From the NCBI GenBank assembly GCA_030625815.1, contig DAOUQF010000023.1, forward strand, positions 1 to 61,324: DNA of 61,324 bases. The letters run 5' to 3'. Positions within the stretch are counted from its first letter, which is position 1. Each line of letters starts with the position of its first letter. The notes below the pieces were generated by a model. It searched no databases. It saw nothing but the letters and a program-made list of their open reading frames with translations, and had not been told where the DNA came from. This stretch comes from Eubacteriales bacterium. Its GTDB lineage: Bacteria; Bacillota; Clostridia; Tissierellales; GPF-1. Both the position numbers and the translations under genes were made by a program. Shown here in pieces: positions 54,007 to 58,095 of the stretch.

Positions 54007-55194
54007 TTATTTGTCAATTTTTTCAGAAAACAGCGTCCGTTCAACCTGTTCCATGAACTGTTTCAGATCCTCACCCTCTTGAAAACTGCCTTGCGCGGAA
54101 CTTGCTCCGCCACCGCCGCGGCCATTCACCGTTTGGATGGTTTCTTTAAAGATCTTACCTGCATGGAGCTCTTCGAGATTATGCATCAATATGACCTTTT
54201 TTTCCGACAAACTCCCGAATAGGCAAACCGCTTCTCGTTCCTTCAATACCGTTTTCGCCAGATTCATCATCATACCCGCTTCCATATTTTCAAAGGTTCG
54301 AACCAGAAGCGTCTGCTCCTCTCTTACCAACTCCTCCATCATTCGATCAAGTTCCCGGAGCCGATAAGCTTTCAGCTCCTGTTCCAGACTCGCAAGTTTC
54401 TCCCGCTCCTTCTTCAATCGAGCGACAAGATTTGCGGTTTCCGCTGAGTATTGCTGATTCAATTCCCGCAAAACGCGATGCTCGAAGGTGGAGTATTTTA
54501 CCGCCCGCATCCCGCAGACAAATTGAATCCGGGTCATGCCCTTGTACTTGTCCGCCCGAAGAATTCGCAAGATCCCCACTTCCCCCGTTCGCGACGGATG
54601 CGTGCCACAACAGGCGACACAATCCACCCCCGGAACATTGACTACTCGAATATCAGTTTCCACAGTCGGTTTCTTTCGAAGGGGAACATCCGCCAATTCA
54701 TCCAATTGCTCGGCTATGCGGATTTCGACCGGCAAATTCTCTTGAATCTTACGATTCACTTCCTCTTCGATTTCAAGAACCATCACTTCAGGAATCTCTG
54801 GCAGATCGATATCCACCGTCACCACTTCCGCCCCCATATGAAAACCCTTGTTGTTTCCCTTCAAACGCTCATAAATCACGCCGGACAGAAGATGCTCGCC
54901 GCAATGCTGCTGCATATGGTCGAGTCTCCGTTCCCAGTCAATCTTAATTGTCACCTCTGTCCCAGCAGGAATCGGCTCTGCCACAAGATGGCGAATGGTT
55001 TCCCCATTTTCCCGCACATCGCTGACAGCAATCCCATTGATCCAACCATGATCCGCATCCTGTCCGCCGCCCTCTGGGGCAAAAATCGTCTGATCCAAAA
55101 TCACCCAGACTTTTCCGTCTTTCTCTTCAACCGCCTCGACTCTCGCCTGGGCTTCTTTTAGATATACGTCCGTGTCAAATAATCGTCTTGTCAT
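54007..55194 (-). CDS. alaX: Alanyl-tRNA editing protein (AlaX-L type)
   Basis: 395 residues from the ATG at 55194 (AGGAGAGG). Domains: a Gly-rich beta-barrel like that of AlaRS (FAPEGGGQDADHG), the editing core with HxxxH in HCGEHLLSG (about 97-105) and CxxxH in CCGTHPSRTGEVG (about 203), and a C-terminal DHHA1 domain (GRGGGGASSAQGSFQ). It removes Ser or Gly wrongly attached to tRNA-Ala. It lies 11 bases behind the selenoprotein gene in one operon. Confidence 0.92.
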   Translation of the reverse strand: MTRRLFDTDVYLKEAQARVEAVEEKDGKVWVILDQTIFAPEGGGQDADHGWINGIAVSDVRENGETIRHLVAEPIPAGTEVTIKIDWERRLDHMQQHCGEHLLSGVIYERLKGNNKGFHMGAEVVTVDIDLPEIPEVMVLEIEEEVNRKIQENLPVEIRIAEQLDELADVPLRKKPTVETDIRVVNVPGVDCVACCGTHPSRTGEVGILRILRADKYKGMTRIQFVCGMRAVKYSTFEHRVLRELNQQYSAETANLVARLKKEREKLASLEQELKAYRLRELDRMMEELVREEQTLLVRTFENMEAGMMMNLAKTVLKEREAVCLFGSLSEKKVILMHNLEELHAGKIFKETIQTVNGRGGGGASSAQGSFQEGEDLKQFMEQVERTLFSEKIDK

Positions 55195-55205
55195 TTTCAC
55201 CTCTC

Positions 55206-55505
55206 CTAAAATCGCAAATTCAGCCCCTTAGCAATCACCCGCTTAAAAATCCAAACCCCGGATAGAACAAAGGTCAATTCCTCCGTTCGCTTCATCACAG
55301 GCAAGTGCAAATATACATCAATTCCATCAATAGTGTGCTTTACATATAATTCTTCTTCCGGTGCCGCCGGCACCGCGAGCTGGATCTCCGGCTCGATCAC
55401 AGAGCCCGCTCAGCCGCCACCCGCCATGCGAAGACTCAGGGTAATCACCCGCTTGTCTTTTCTTAGCAAGTGCGCTTTGACACTTTCCTCAATGACGATC
55501 TTCAT
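55206..55505 (-). CDS. Selenoprotein of the HesB-like/'CC-Se motif' type (in-frame UGA = Sec)
   Basis: Read with UGA as selenocysteine, this is a 99-residue protein. The ATG at 55505 has a GGAGG six bases upstream; the frame runs MKIVIEESVKAHLLRKDKR…SLRMAGGG, meets TGA at 55410-55412 (residue 32), and goes on in the same phase (AGSVIEPEIQLAVPAAP … TIDGIDVYLHLPV … LSGVWIFKRVIAKGL) to a stop at 55206. The two halves together match a small IscA/HesB-like (seleno)protein family in which a Cys-Cys or Sec motif occupies this place. A GGCTC-TGTGATC-GAGCC hairpin sits just after the UGA and is a SECIS candidate. Conventional annotation would give only the 64-residue part. Confidence 0.78.
55380..55412 (-). 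promoter_or_regulatory. Candidate bacterial SECIS element
   Basis: Directly downstream of the UGA (55412-55410) a five-base-pair stem GGCTC/GAGCC closes a seven-base loop TGTGATC with a GU near its 5' side, as in bacterial SECIS loops. The distance from the UGA is at the short end of known examples. A second, stronger hairpin (GGTGCC…GGCACC, about 55361-55375) lies further on and could also contribute. Confidence 0.45.
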
Positions 55506-55518
55506 TTCCGTCCTCCAT

Positions 55519-58095
55519 CTATTTTCCTTTTTCCGATAGAATCGTTACAATTCCCGTATTTCCGTCTACCTGAATCCGATCTCCGGTTTGAATCTTGCTC
55601 GTCGCTTGATCCACCCCTACGATGGCAGGGATCCCATATTCCCGAGCGACAATCGCTCCATGAGTCAACAGTCCTCCTACCTCCAAAACCAAGCCTCTGG
55701 CATGAATAAACAGCGGGGTCCAACCCGGATCCGTAAAGGGCGCAACTAAAATTTCACCAGGTTCCATCCTTGCCTCTTCCGGGTGTTCGACAACCCGCGC
55801 AACGCCCTCATAAACACCACTGGAAACGCCGGTACCCCCAAGCTCATTTTCATTCAAGCTTCGATTCGCATCTTCCGGCGGCACGATCCAACCGCGATTG
55901 GTTACAACCCGCGGCACGCGCCGACCTTCTGCTTTCTCGAAAGCAAGTCTTCTTTCTTTGATCCGTTCTTGCATGGCTTGTTTCTCTTTTACCATTTCAA
56001 TAACTTCGTCAAATTCCAAATAGTAGACGTCCTCCACCGCATCCAACCATCCCAGGTCAACCGCCTCTTTCGCGATGCGTAGAATCTCCTTTTTCACCTC
56101 GCCATACACCAAAATCATGCCATACTTTCCATGTTCCCGCGCAGGCATCAAATACAAAACCCGATCCACCATGTCCCGATAAAACCGCCGAAAAATCATG
56201 CGGAATCCCGCACTCATTTGCGCCACAATCTGATCGCCGGCCGCAATCGATGCTTGCGTCAATGCCTCGTACTCACGGCGATGCTGGTCCGGCTTGAATA
56301 CCCGCAAATGATTTTGAACACTCAACACAATGGCTGACGGATCTTCGAACCAGCGGGCATTGGTAATATCGATTTCCCCAATCCCTCGTGATCCGTACCG
56401 GTCCATAACCACTCTCATTTGATCGCCGGTTGATCCCTCTGCGCGCATCAGTTCGGAAACAAAAACCTTTGCGTCCCATTGATCCAAGCGTCGATGCCAC
56501 ACATTGTCTTCCCGAATTTTCTCCGCCAAGTCTCCTATGACGAGTCCCATCTCGGTGGTCACATTGCCGATCAAACCCTTCACCAAGGTCTGCGCCAATT
56601 CATCAGTTCCCAAGAAACGCTCGGTTTTTTTCACAAGAAACCGATAGGACGCCATCCCCGGTCCAATATAGGGAACAAATCGTGTAAAGGCTTCCAACAA
56701 ATACCCCTGTATGCCTGCCTTGCAAATCTCCAACCGCTTAATCGAATCCTCTTCTTTTTCTAGGTCATCCTTCAACTGATTGAGATAGGCACCGATAAAA
56801 ACGTTGCACGCCTCAATCTGTAATTTCTTCGGGCGGCTGGCCTGTCTCATCCCGTGAATCAAAAACTTCACCGTATCCCACAAAGACTTTCCCTGATCGC
56901 TGCGTGGCTGCATGCCTTTTACAAATTCCTTGTCCTTCAATACTCGGCGCATACTGCCCGCCATCACCGCATCGATCACGTCTATTCTAGTTCCGATCGT
57001 CTTTCGAAACAACGGCACGGCCAGATAATCCGTCATATCCACAAACAGGTATCCACCGGCATCATGCATAATTTGTGTCTTTCCCGACTCATCCCTATCA
57101 AAGGGAAAAACCCATTTCAAACAATCCGCTCCTAACGTCCGCATGGGTTTCATCATATTTTGAATATGATGAAAGGAGAGATACACCGCATTTCCTTCCC
57201 GCTCCGGATCAATCAATGGAAATAGCGTCGTAATGGCTCTCGCCTGCAAGATCCAAAGCTTCCCCTCTCGATCAAGCGCCCATTCAATATCCATTGGCAT
57301 GCCGTAAAGATTTTCAACGTCACCCGCGAGACTCGCAAGCCGGTGAATCATGGACTCTTCCAGCATGCCATTTTCTTCTGATTCTTGTTGGTGCGCTAGA
57401 ATCTCTTTTGCTTCACGCTGATAGACGATGGTATTGGGCGTCATTTTTCCCGCTACCAACTCATCTCCCGTACCTCTTACATAGTCCACCGTCAAATTCT
57501 TTCGATTCTCAGATAACGGATCCACGGTAAAGACTACCCCTGAATATTTTGGCGCAATCATCCGTTGAATGACAACAGAGATCGATAAATTCCGATGAGT
57601 GATCTGATTTTTCAACCGATAACTGATAGCACGGTCATTAAACAGAGACGCCCAGCATTTTCGAATAGAAACCATGACCGCTTCAATCCCTTCAACAAAG
57701 AGATAGCTGTCCTGCTGACCGGCGAAGGAGGCTTCCGGCAGGTCTTCCGCCGTAGCGCTGGAGCGCACCGCAAAGGAAGTTCCTTCAACGAATTCTTGTA
57801 AGACTGTCCGCATCTCCGTCTCCAGCGTTTTGCTCAATTCCGTTTGAATAATCAATCCGCGAATCTCTTTGCCCTTTGCTTCAATTCCTTTAATATCCTC
57901 CGGGTCCAATTCATCCAAGGCGAGCAGTTGAGCGCTCCCACCGATCGTGTGAATCATCTCGTCAAATACCCGCGACAAAACACAGAATCCTTCGGGCACC
58001 GGAAAACCCGCTTGCAAAAGAATCCCTAAATTATGCCCTTTTCCACCAACCAAATGAAATTCTTCTTTTGTCAATTCTTGAAAATATTTGATCAT
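55519..58095 (-). CDS. PEP-synthase-like / rifampin-phosphotransferase-type dikinase
   Basis: 858 residues from the ATG at 58095 (GGGAG). An N-terminal ATP-grasp domain (GGKGHNLGILLQAGFPVPEGF, about 14-35; RSSATAEDLPEASFAGQQDS; VFTVDPLSENR), a middle helical domain and a C-terminal phosphohistidine swivel domain (EVGGLLTHGAIVAREYG, His about 825). The order ATP-domain, middle, His-domain and the length match rifamycin phosphotransferases and related pyruvate, water dikinase-like proteins; the PEP/pyruvate barrel of true PpsA is absent. The acceptor substrate is unknown. First gene of the operon with the selenoprotein and alaX genes. Confidence 0.83.
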   Translation of the reverse strand: MIKYFQELTKEEFHLVGGKGHNLGILLQAGFPVPEGFCVLSRVFDEMIHTIGGSAQLLALDELDPEDIKGIEAKGKEIRGLIIQTELSKTLETEMRTVLQEFVEGTSFAVRSSATAEDLPEASFAGQQDSYLFVEGIEAVMVSIRKCWASLFNDRAISYRLKNQITHRNLSISVVIQRMIAPKYSGVVFTVDPLSENRKNLTVDYVRGTGDELVAGKMTPNTIVYQREAKEILAHQQESEENGMLEESMIHRLASLAGDVENLYGMPMDIEWALDREGKLWILQARAITTLFPLIDPEREGNAVYLSFHHIQNMMKPMRTLGADCLKWVFPFDRDESGKTQIMHDAGGYLFVDMTDYLAVPLFRKTIGTRIDVIDAVMAGSMRRVLKDKEFVKGMQPRSDQGKSLWDTVKFLIHGMRQASRPKKLQIEACNVFIGAYLNQLKDDLEKEEDSIKRLEICKAGIQGYLLEAFTRFVPYIGPGMASYRFLVKKTERFLGTDELAQTLVKGLIGNVTTEMGLVIGDLAEKIREDNVWHRRLDQWDAKVFVSELMRAEGSTGDQMRVVMDRYGSRGIGEIDITNARWFEDPSAIVLSVQNHLRVFKPDQHRREYEALTQASIAAGDQIVAQMSAGFRMIFRRFYRDMVDRVLYLMPAREHGKYGMILVYGEVKKEILRIAKEAVDLGWLDAVEDVYYLEFDEVIEMVKEKQAMQERIKERRLAFEKAEGRRVPRVVTNRGWIVPPEDANRSLNENELGGTGVSSGVYEGVARVVEHPEEARMEPGEILVAPFTDPGWTPLFIHARGLVLEVGGLLTHGAIVAREYGIPAIVGVDQATSKIQTGDRIQVDGNTGIVTILSEKGK

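Follow-up and report, generated by a model that had tools for sequence, protein, structure and literature searches.

A probable selenoprotein gene of the CC/Se motif family with a distal hairpin as its candidate SECIS element

The model of bacterial SECIS elements (bSECIS) comprises a stem of 4-16 bp, a loop of 3-9 nt with a G in its first two positions, an energy of at most -7.5 and, "for most bSECIS elements", a distance of 16-37 nt between the UGA and the apical loop (PMC13188914). According to the same review, some elements fail this model. Its entry on the family NF041239 gives a high-confidence prediction with a CxxU motif and one Sec, and a hypothetical protein predicted in Moorella thermoacetica (PMC13188914). 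The locus described here lies in a window of 61,324 nucleotides (the whole stretch of DNA that was analysed), from a genome that is 98.5% complete (G000 in the coordinates below). We consider it probable that this locus holds one selenoprotein gene whose UGA would be recoded to Sec via SelB, the hairpin bound by SelB being most likely the distal one at 55375-55359 (Table 1).

The UGA-containing gene and the Sec machinery

A sequence-only reading of this stretch had proposed that a selenoprotein gene is hidden there by an in-frame UGA, and the observation of a hidden UGA-containing gene is confirmed. The gene opens with an ATG (55505-55503, minus strand) behind the strong ribosome site that had been read, and closes with a TAG (55208-55206); its TGA is in phase, within GGG-U-AGS. 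The product (U = TGA 55412-55410) reads MKIVIEESVKAHLLRKDKRVITLSLRMAGGGUAGSVIEPEIQLAVPAAPEEELYVKHTIDGIDVYLHLPVMKRTEELTFVLSGVWIFKRVIAKGLNLRF and has no Cys among its 99 residues. The standard list of ORFs holds 55206-55400, read from a GTG as 64 aa, with 35 N-terminal residues missing; the loss of the first third through this start had been foreseen. The gene also sits as tightly as described between a dikinase and alaX, 13 nt past the stop of the dikinase-like gene and 11 nt ahead of the ATG (55194) of the AlaX-like gene.

Table 1. Features of the locus, in positions of the window
Feature	Position	Strand	Basis or remark
Upstream dikinase-like protein (PPDK_N + PEP-utilizers), 863 aa	55519..58110	-	below the cut-off of 24/24 NCBIfam models listed
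GGAGG ribosome binding site, 6 nt 5' of the ATG	55512..55516	-	sequence read directly
Selenoprotein gene, NF041239, 99 aa + TAG stop	55206..55505	-	frame, family match, two congeneric genomes
In-frame UGA, codon 32, putatively Sec	55410..55412	-	orthologues, Sec machinery, Sec/Cys pairs
Spacer UGA+1 to +34, nearly fixed; possible folds GGCUC-UGURAUC-GAGCC (55390-55406) or stem UGA+1 to +35	55376..55409	-	
Distal hairpin CGGUGCC-GGC-GGCACCG, UGA+35 to +51, best SECIS candidate	55359..55375	-	folds, covariation, strict test
Downstream AlaX-like alanyl-tRNA editing protein (tRNA_SAD, DHHA1)	54007..55194	-	

The genome was searched for selA, selB, selC and selD, as had been advised, and all four are present: tRNA-Sec matches at 75.3 bits, SelB at 342 bits, SelA at 553 bits and SelD at 389 bits, the latter having one in-frame TGA of its own. 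On contig 38, some 2 kb separate the tRNA-Sec from the SelB match above the cut-off, and SelA adjoins SelD on contig 3. The SelD of this genus (G000:C3:1548-2471; L053, L124) is itself a UGA protein with the motif SSGUG, and two hairpins are predicted 3' of its UGA, with loops at +18 and +34.

The gene is kept in two congeneric genomes, G001 (locus L056) and G002 (locus L009, "Clostridiales bacterium isolate GPF-1", counted once), at 79-81% identity, and neither the codon position of the UGA nor the neighbours differ; the window form of the gene is known from these three genomes of one genus only. A block of nearly fixed silent sites begins at the UGA, and the codons upstream drift like coding sequence. 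Of the codons that have synonyms and whose amino acid is conserved in the three genomes, codons 33-50 contain 17, of which 15 are identical; in the rest of the gene, the count is 19 of 52 (one-sided Fisher test, p=2e-4). Between the window and G002, fourfold sites are equal at 12/12 positions in codons 33-50 versus 11/23 elsewhere, and all 54 nt of this block are equal (54/54) in genes whose proteins are 82% identical overall.

These data also bear on the opposite reading, in which the UGA is a true stop, either because the gene is decaying or because its product is the 64-aa ORF from the GTG at 55400. Gene callers would indeed yield this ORF, and TGA terminates six of the 52 non-overlapping ORFs of at least 150 codons in the window. 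However, codons 1-31 stay in frame in the three genomes, where silent-only differences (15 codons) outnumber residue changes (9 codons, with 7 unchanged), the UGA is fixed in three genomes out of three, and the silent-site block opens at the UGA. Furthermore, the family match described below is full-length and includes Sec/Cys pairs, and the Sec machinery is complete. A true stop is thus very improbable. A changed genetic code was considered as well and is disfavoured because TGA still ends these six of 52 long ORFs, i.e., it is still used as an ordinary stop in the window.

The family NF041239 and its distance to HesB/IscA

The window protein matches NF041239, the "CC/Se motif family (seleno)protein", at 46.3 bits with Sec read as Cys, above the membership cut-off of 40 bits, and the alignment places residues 1-94 on positions 1-90 of the 91 of the profile; in the genome search the gene scores 40.6 bits. 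This is the single NCBIfam match of the protein up to E=1, and a Pfam search of it returned no family. The motif loop holds its Sec (U32) and has neither a CxxU nor a CC pair, since it reads GGGUAGS. Many forms of the motif occur among the Sec rows of this family, which is loose at this place.

NF041239 was found in 100 of 199 order-level genomes (74 above the cut-off), many matches having one internal TGA, and in 37 of 391 genomes drawn from the class (27 above the cut-off), some genomes being part of both searches. Part of these matches gave 111 distinct rows whose motif region has a UGA and 28 rows where it has none, the second gene copies L126, L132, L131 and L127 being left out; 26 of the 28 have Cys at the motif. 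The rows nearest to the window are L133 (Sec, GGGUCGS, 35% identity) and L134 (Cys, GGGCCET), followed by L135 and L186 (Cys, GGGCCPT), and one genome (G570) has both the Sec form L133 and the Cys form L134 of this subfamily. In a tree of few columns and unresolved backbone, these four rows make up the clade nearest to the window, which joins them at 84/64. A further clade, PEIFV, is supported at 97/99. The window Sec aligns to the first Cys of the GGGCC loop, and Ala stands where the second Cys was. The alignment of homologues at residue 32, which the sequence-only reading had called for, therefore finds Cys or Sec there: the UGA is conserved in orthologues and exchanged for Cys in homologues.

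The proposed insertion of Sec at the UGA gains support from both sides, namely the sel genes of the genome and the Cys or Sec of the homologues. On these comparisons, recoding of the UGA to Sec in the window gene appears near certain, and we infer that Sec is physically inserted at codon 32. A ribosome initiating at 55505 would arrive at this UGA, where SelB with Sec-tRNA on an mRNA hairpin further 3' would deliver selenocysteine, and release factor 2 would not stop translation. The product would be a 99-aa member of NF041239 in which Sec replaces the first Cys of the loop of its closest relatives.

Elsewhere in the class, nine loci that resemble NF041239, in eight genomes (L216, L217, L219, L220, L221, L222, L223, L224 and L226), carry a tandem in-frame TGA-TGA (Sec-Sec). 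Their motif is GUU in eight cases and TUU in L219, their NF041239 scores are below the cut-off, and the second TGA is followed by a hairpin whose loop starts at +21 or +22, counted from it. The review enters NF041239 with one Sec (PMC13188914).

The sequence-only reading also saw a resemblance to IscA/HesB-like (seleno)proteins. This did not hold in direct searches, which place the protein in NF041239, and it survives only at profile-profile distance. No match of the window protein to TIGR01911 (HesB-like) or to PF01521 was listed up to E=1, so that it falls outside TIGR01911 (cut-off 66.35 bits), and the TIGR01911 matches of its own genome are all on contig C14, the window gene not being among them. 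With hhalign, profile A1 (56 family rows) aligned to 27 HesB-like rows at 95.4% (E=1.8e-8, in a one-against-one comparison), against 2.1% for the reversed profile and at most 0.7% for 20 column shuffles. A profile search of the PDB with A1 gave no match up to E=10. AlphaFold2 reached a pLDDT of 45 on the single protein and of 37.5 on the pair formed by the window and L009, and since both models are too poor for use, hhalign is the one source of the HesB/IscA link. By profile, the window protein would be a distant relative of HesB/IscA.

That it could be a HesB-like selenoprotein proper (TIGR01911) is scarcely credible. The two families do have profile-profile similarity and a Sec in a Gly-rich loop in common, but the window protein gives no direct match to either HesB model within the limit stated above, its motif is UAGS and not UxGP, and two other genes of the genome match TIGR01911 at E 1.0e-13 and 2.6e-12. 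The genome also has a HesB-like pair on C14 (1408-2142; L122), with FGUSGP at an in-frame TGA in one gene and FGCSGP, with Cys, in the other. Both score below the TIGR01911 cut-off (53.2 bits for 1408-1677, the gene with the TGA, and 48.7 bits for 1882-2142, the Cys gene), and they reach 31.7 and 25.5 bits with PF01521, whose cut-off is 26.3.

Hairpins downstream of the UGA

The distal hairpin has 7 bp, a 3-nt loop and an energy of -11.3 kcal/mol; its apical GGC (55368-55366) lies 41 nt past the UGA. It is the likely binding site of SelB. The hairpin AAGCUCC-GGU-GGAGCUU of L133 occupies the same place, and 4 of 7 pairs are changed on both sides between the two, in proteins as distant as stated above. 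Across five hairpins, both partners are changed in 5 of 7 pairs (a figure inflated by the choice of the five sequences, which were taken for forming the hairpin), and pairing is 100%, versus 46-57% when slid by one column. When the codons were recoded synonymously at random 20,000 times, a distal stem of this length arose with a chance of 0.0041 for the window, 0.0074 and 0.0063 for its congeners, 0.0010 for L133 and, in the PEIFV clade, 0.0029 for L091, 0.0050 for L062 and 0.0113 for L065, for which codons were drawn evenly, no long ORF being at hand. Over UGA+10 to +47, this chance is 0.04 for the window and 0.04-0.06 for the three congeners; for the others it is 0.0010-0.0113. Rfam found one tRNA and nothing else in the whole window; on 55100-55700, a loose threshold brought up a sub-threshold sRNA match (E 0.72), which was taken as chance.

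A survey of the Sec rows shows where such hairpins usually stand. The strict test asked for a stem of at least 5 bp and a G[G/U] loop starting at UGA+17 to +37 (proximal) or +38 to +47 (distal). With two clades set aside, 97 distinct Sec rows remain; the hairpin is proximal in 73 of them, distal in one and missing from both places in 23. The proximal loops of these rows are 16-36 nt from the UGA, and a typical hairpin is CCAUC-AGUUAA-GAUGG, with its loop at +21 to +25. The window genus and L133 show the reverse, with 0/4 proximal and 4/4 distal hairpins. The PEIFV clade is mixed: distal in 5/10 (loop +39), proximal in 3/10 (one row having both) and neither in 3/10. Control stretches passed in 5/111 (proximal) and 7/111 (distal) cases upstream, in 35/333 and 6/333 downstream, and in 7/50 and 2/50 for Cys placements.

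Under a relaxed rule (loop of 3-9 nt with a G at its first or second position), the other Sec rows reach 77/97 proximal and 3/97 distal, and the window genus with L133 reaches 1/4 and 4/4; this rule is met by chance far more often (88/333 downstream stretches). The proximal case is the 7-bp AAUUCCU-GAAAU-AGGAAUU of L133 (loop at +22), and L133, having both hairpins, is an unclean case for a distal SECIS. As for the three rows of the window genus, none has a proximal stem of at least 5 bp under this rule (3/3).

Another test was centred on position three of the conserved Pro codon, in rows unselected for the hairpin, and covered 102 of the 111 Sec rows, the other nine having no Pro in place. 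Of 7 pairs, 7.0 are formed in the window genus and L133 (4 rows), 5.8 in PEIFV (10 rows) and 1.9 in the others (88 rows). It is conceivable, although on balance rather doubtful, that the SECIS has moved in the window genus with L133 and in PEIFV. The usual place, about 20-30 nt past the UGA, would have been abandoned and the SelB-binding hairpin re-formed 38-41 nt away, on a near-invariant Pro codon. The gap would be closed up by a spacer hairpin, which is predicted for L133, L091 and the window genus, and the loop would come to lie at an ordinary effective distance from the ribosome. Single-sequence folds of L133 and L091 do show a hairpin ahead of the distal one; for the window genus, it is one of two alternatives. 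Compaction by the spacer is an idea rather than a result, because greater stability than in the recodings is clear in L091 alone of seven rows (fraction 0.002, versus 0.07-0.38 in the other six).

The same spacer opens another possibility, namely that the gene is a selenoprotein gene whose SECIS is a nearer structure, either GGCUC-UGURAUC-GAGCC with its loop at UGA+9 or the long stem UGA+1 to +35, the distal hairpin acting only as a helper or pause signal. The spacer is itself nearly invariant, and within codons 33-50 G001 has two silent changes (+12/+27), which would pair in the long stem, from G-C to A-U. In the same way, the two SelD loops of the genus and the GAAAU loop of L133 show nearer spacings. 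However, with loops at +9 or about +16 these structures would stand closer to the UGA than the consensus range, and the fold predicted for G001 lacks the +12/+27 pair. The lone hairpin of the window that is conventionally placed (+15 to +34, loop +23) is broken in G001 by a change from CAG to AGA and was rejected as SECIS. The missing proximal stems of the window genus, set against the 77/97 of the other rows, also count against a nearer element, which we regard as unlikely. The distal hairpin is thus retained as the preferred SECIS candidate.

If the displacement is real, it would define a class of bacterial SECIS with two hairpins and a long spacing, which searches limited to 16-37 nt miss, and some selenoprotein genes are perhaps still truncated in annotations. 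A family that keeps its protein but seemingly shifts its hairpin would show that the distance rule of SECIS is looser than the consensus. Furthermore, such a relocated hairpin would be natural material on how SelB reaches the ribosome.

Neighbours, possible role and comparison with known systems

The order dikinase - selenoprotein - AlaX is found in all three genomes of the genus. Orthologues of the dikinase at E 1e-100 or better occur in 9 of 150 genomes, at 86 and 77% identity in the congeners and 36% in the next one; since only the three congeneric genomes are close, this neighbour says little beyond the genus. Beyond the genus, the 112 loci examined, some of them holding one and the same gene, gave no further match to AlaX. 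The only further dikinase matches there span 98 residues (38%) of the PEP-utilising mobile domain, at the edge of the Cys loci L181 and L182 (L181:2979-3272 and L182:2895-3188), about 1.2 kb from the Cys members. A link of AlaX to Ser-tRNA-Sec was considered and set aside for want of support, and a search for GrdA (PF04723) in the three congeneric genomes gave no match, the control genomes being equally silent.

Other members of the family have various neighbours. In 12 loci (L019, L021, L023, L025, L031, L037, L039, L088, L090, L092, L093 and L094), the CC/Se gene is of the C(S/A)xUG type and has an SDF symporter gene immediately upstream; four of these loci have a cysteine synthase-like gene directly downstream. 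CstA accompanies the family gene in seven loci (L072 and L079 being one gene), and an unannotated Cys-rich gene is present in 13, several of which repeat one gene. In L013, L014 and L170, with the motif GUCH, an ArsR-like gene precedes the family gene and an arsenite efflux gene, ACR3, follows it (not directly in L170), and an arsenite methyltransferase gene adjoins the Cys member L010. These arsenic genes suggest a metalloid link for part of NF041239.

With its single selenolate and without cysteine, the window protein cannot perform a CxxU reaction internally. For this reason, a role as a single-selenolate site that binds or relays a soft ligand (metal, metalloid or persulfide) for a neighbouring enzyme or transporter is weakly favoured as the most likely one. 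The varied neighbours of the family would fit an accessory protein of small size, binding such a ligand or passing it on. The protein could also be a thiol/selenol redox enzyme, reductase or peroxidase, and not a carrier. In the view of the review, most selenoproteins still uncharacterised have redox functions (PMC13188914), and Cys is found within four residues of Sec in 86 of the 111 Sec rows; on the other hand, the resolving thiol of the window protein would have to be external, and 17 of the 111 Sec rows, the window's included, have no Cys anywhere. A redox enzyme is slightly less than an even prospect, and between ligand binding and redox work with an outside thiol the odds are roughly even. 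The window protein belongs to a family that is catalogued without a function, and its reduction to a single Sec with no Cys limits the chemistry open to it alone.

As regards known systems, the likeness to TIGR01911/PF01521 is a distant profile similarity over 85 columns, with Sec/Cys within one aligned position. HesB-like families have a UxGP motif, in place of which the window protein has UAGS. IscA bears a C-terminal Cys pair motif, which the window protein lacks.

The likeness to NF041239 is much closer: the window protein is small, matches the profile over its full length above the cut-off and has the Sec or Cys of a Gly-rich loop, and its spacing from Sec to the near-invariant Pro equals that of L133. 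It differs from the review table, which gives CxxU for this family (PMC13188914), by a GGGUA without Cys, and from other members by a candidate SECIS hairpin that is distal and not proximal, and by its dikinase and AlaX neighbours. As for the bSECIS model, the distal hairpin agrees with it in loop size, stem length, position of the G (GG first) and energy. The difference is in the spacing, which is 41 nt in the window and L133 instead of 16-37 nt and borderline in PEIFV, at 38 nt, or 37 nt with the closing pair opened.
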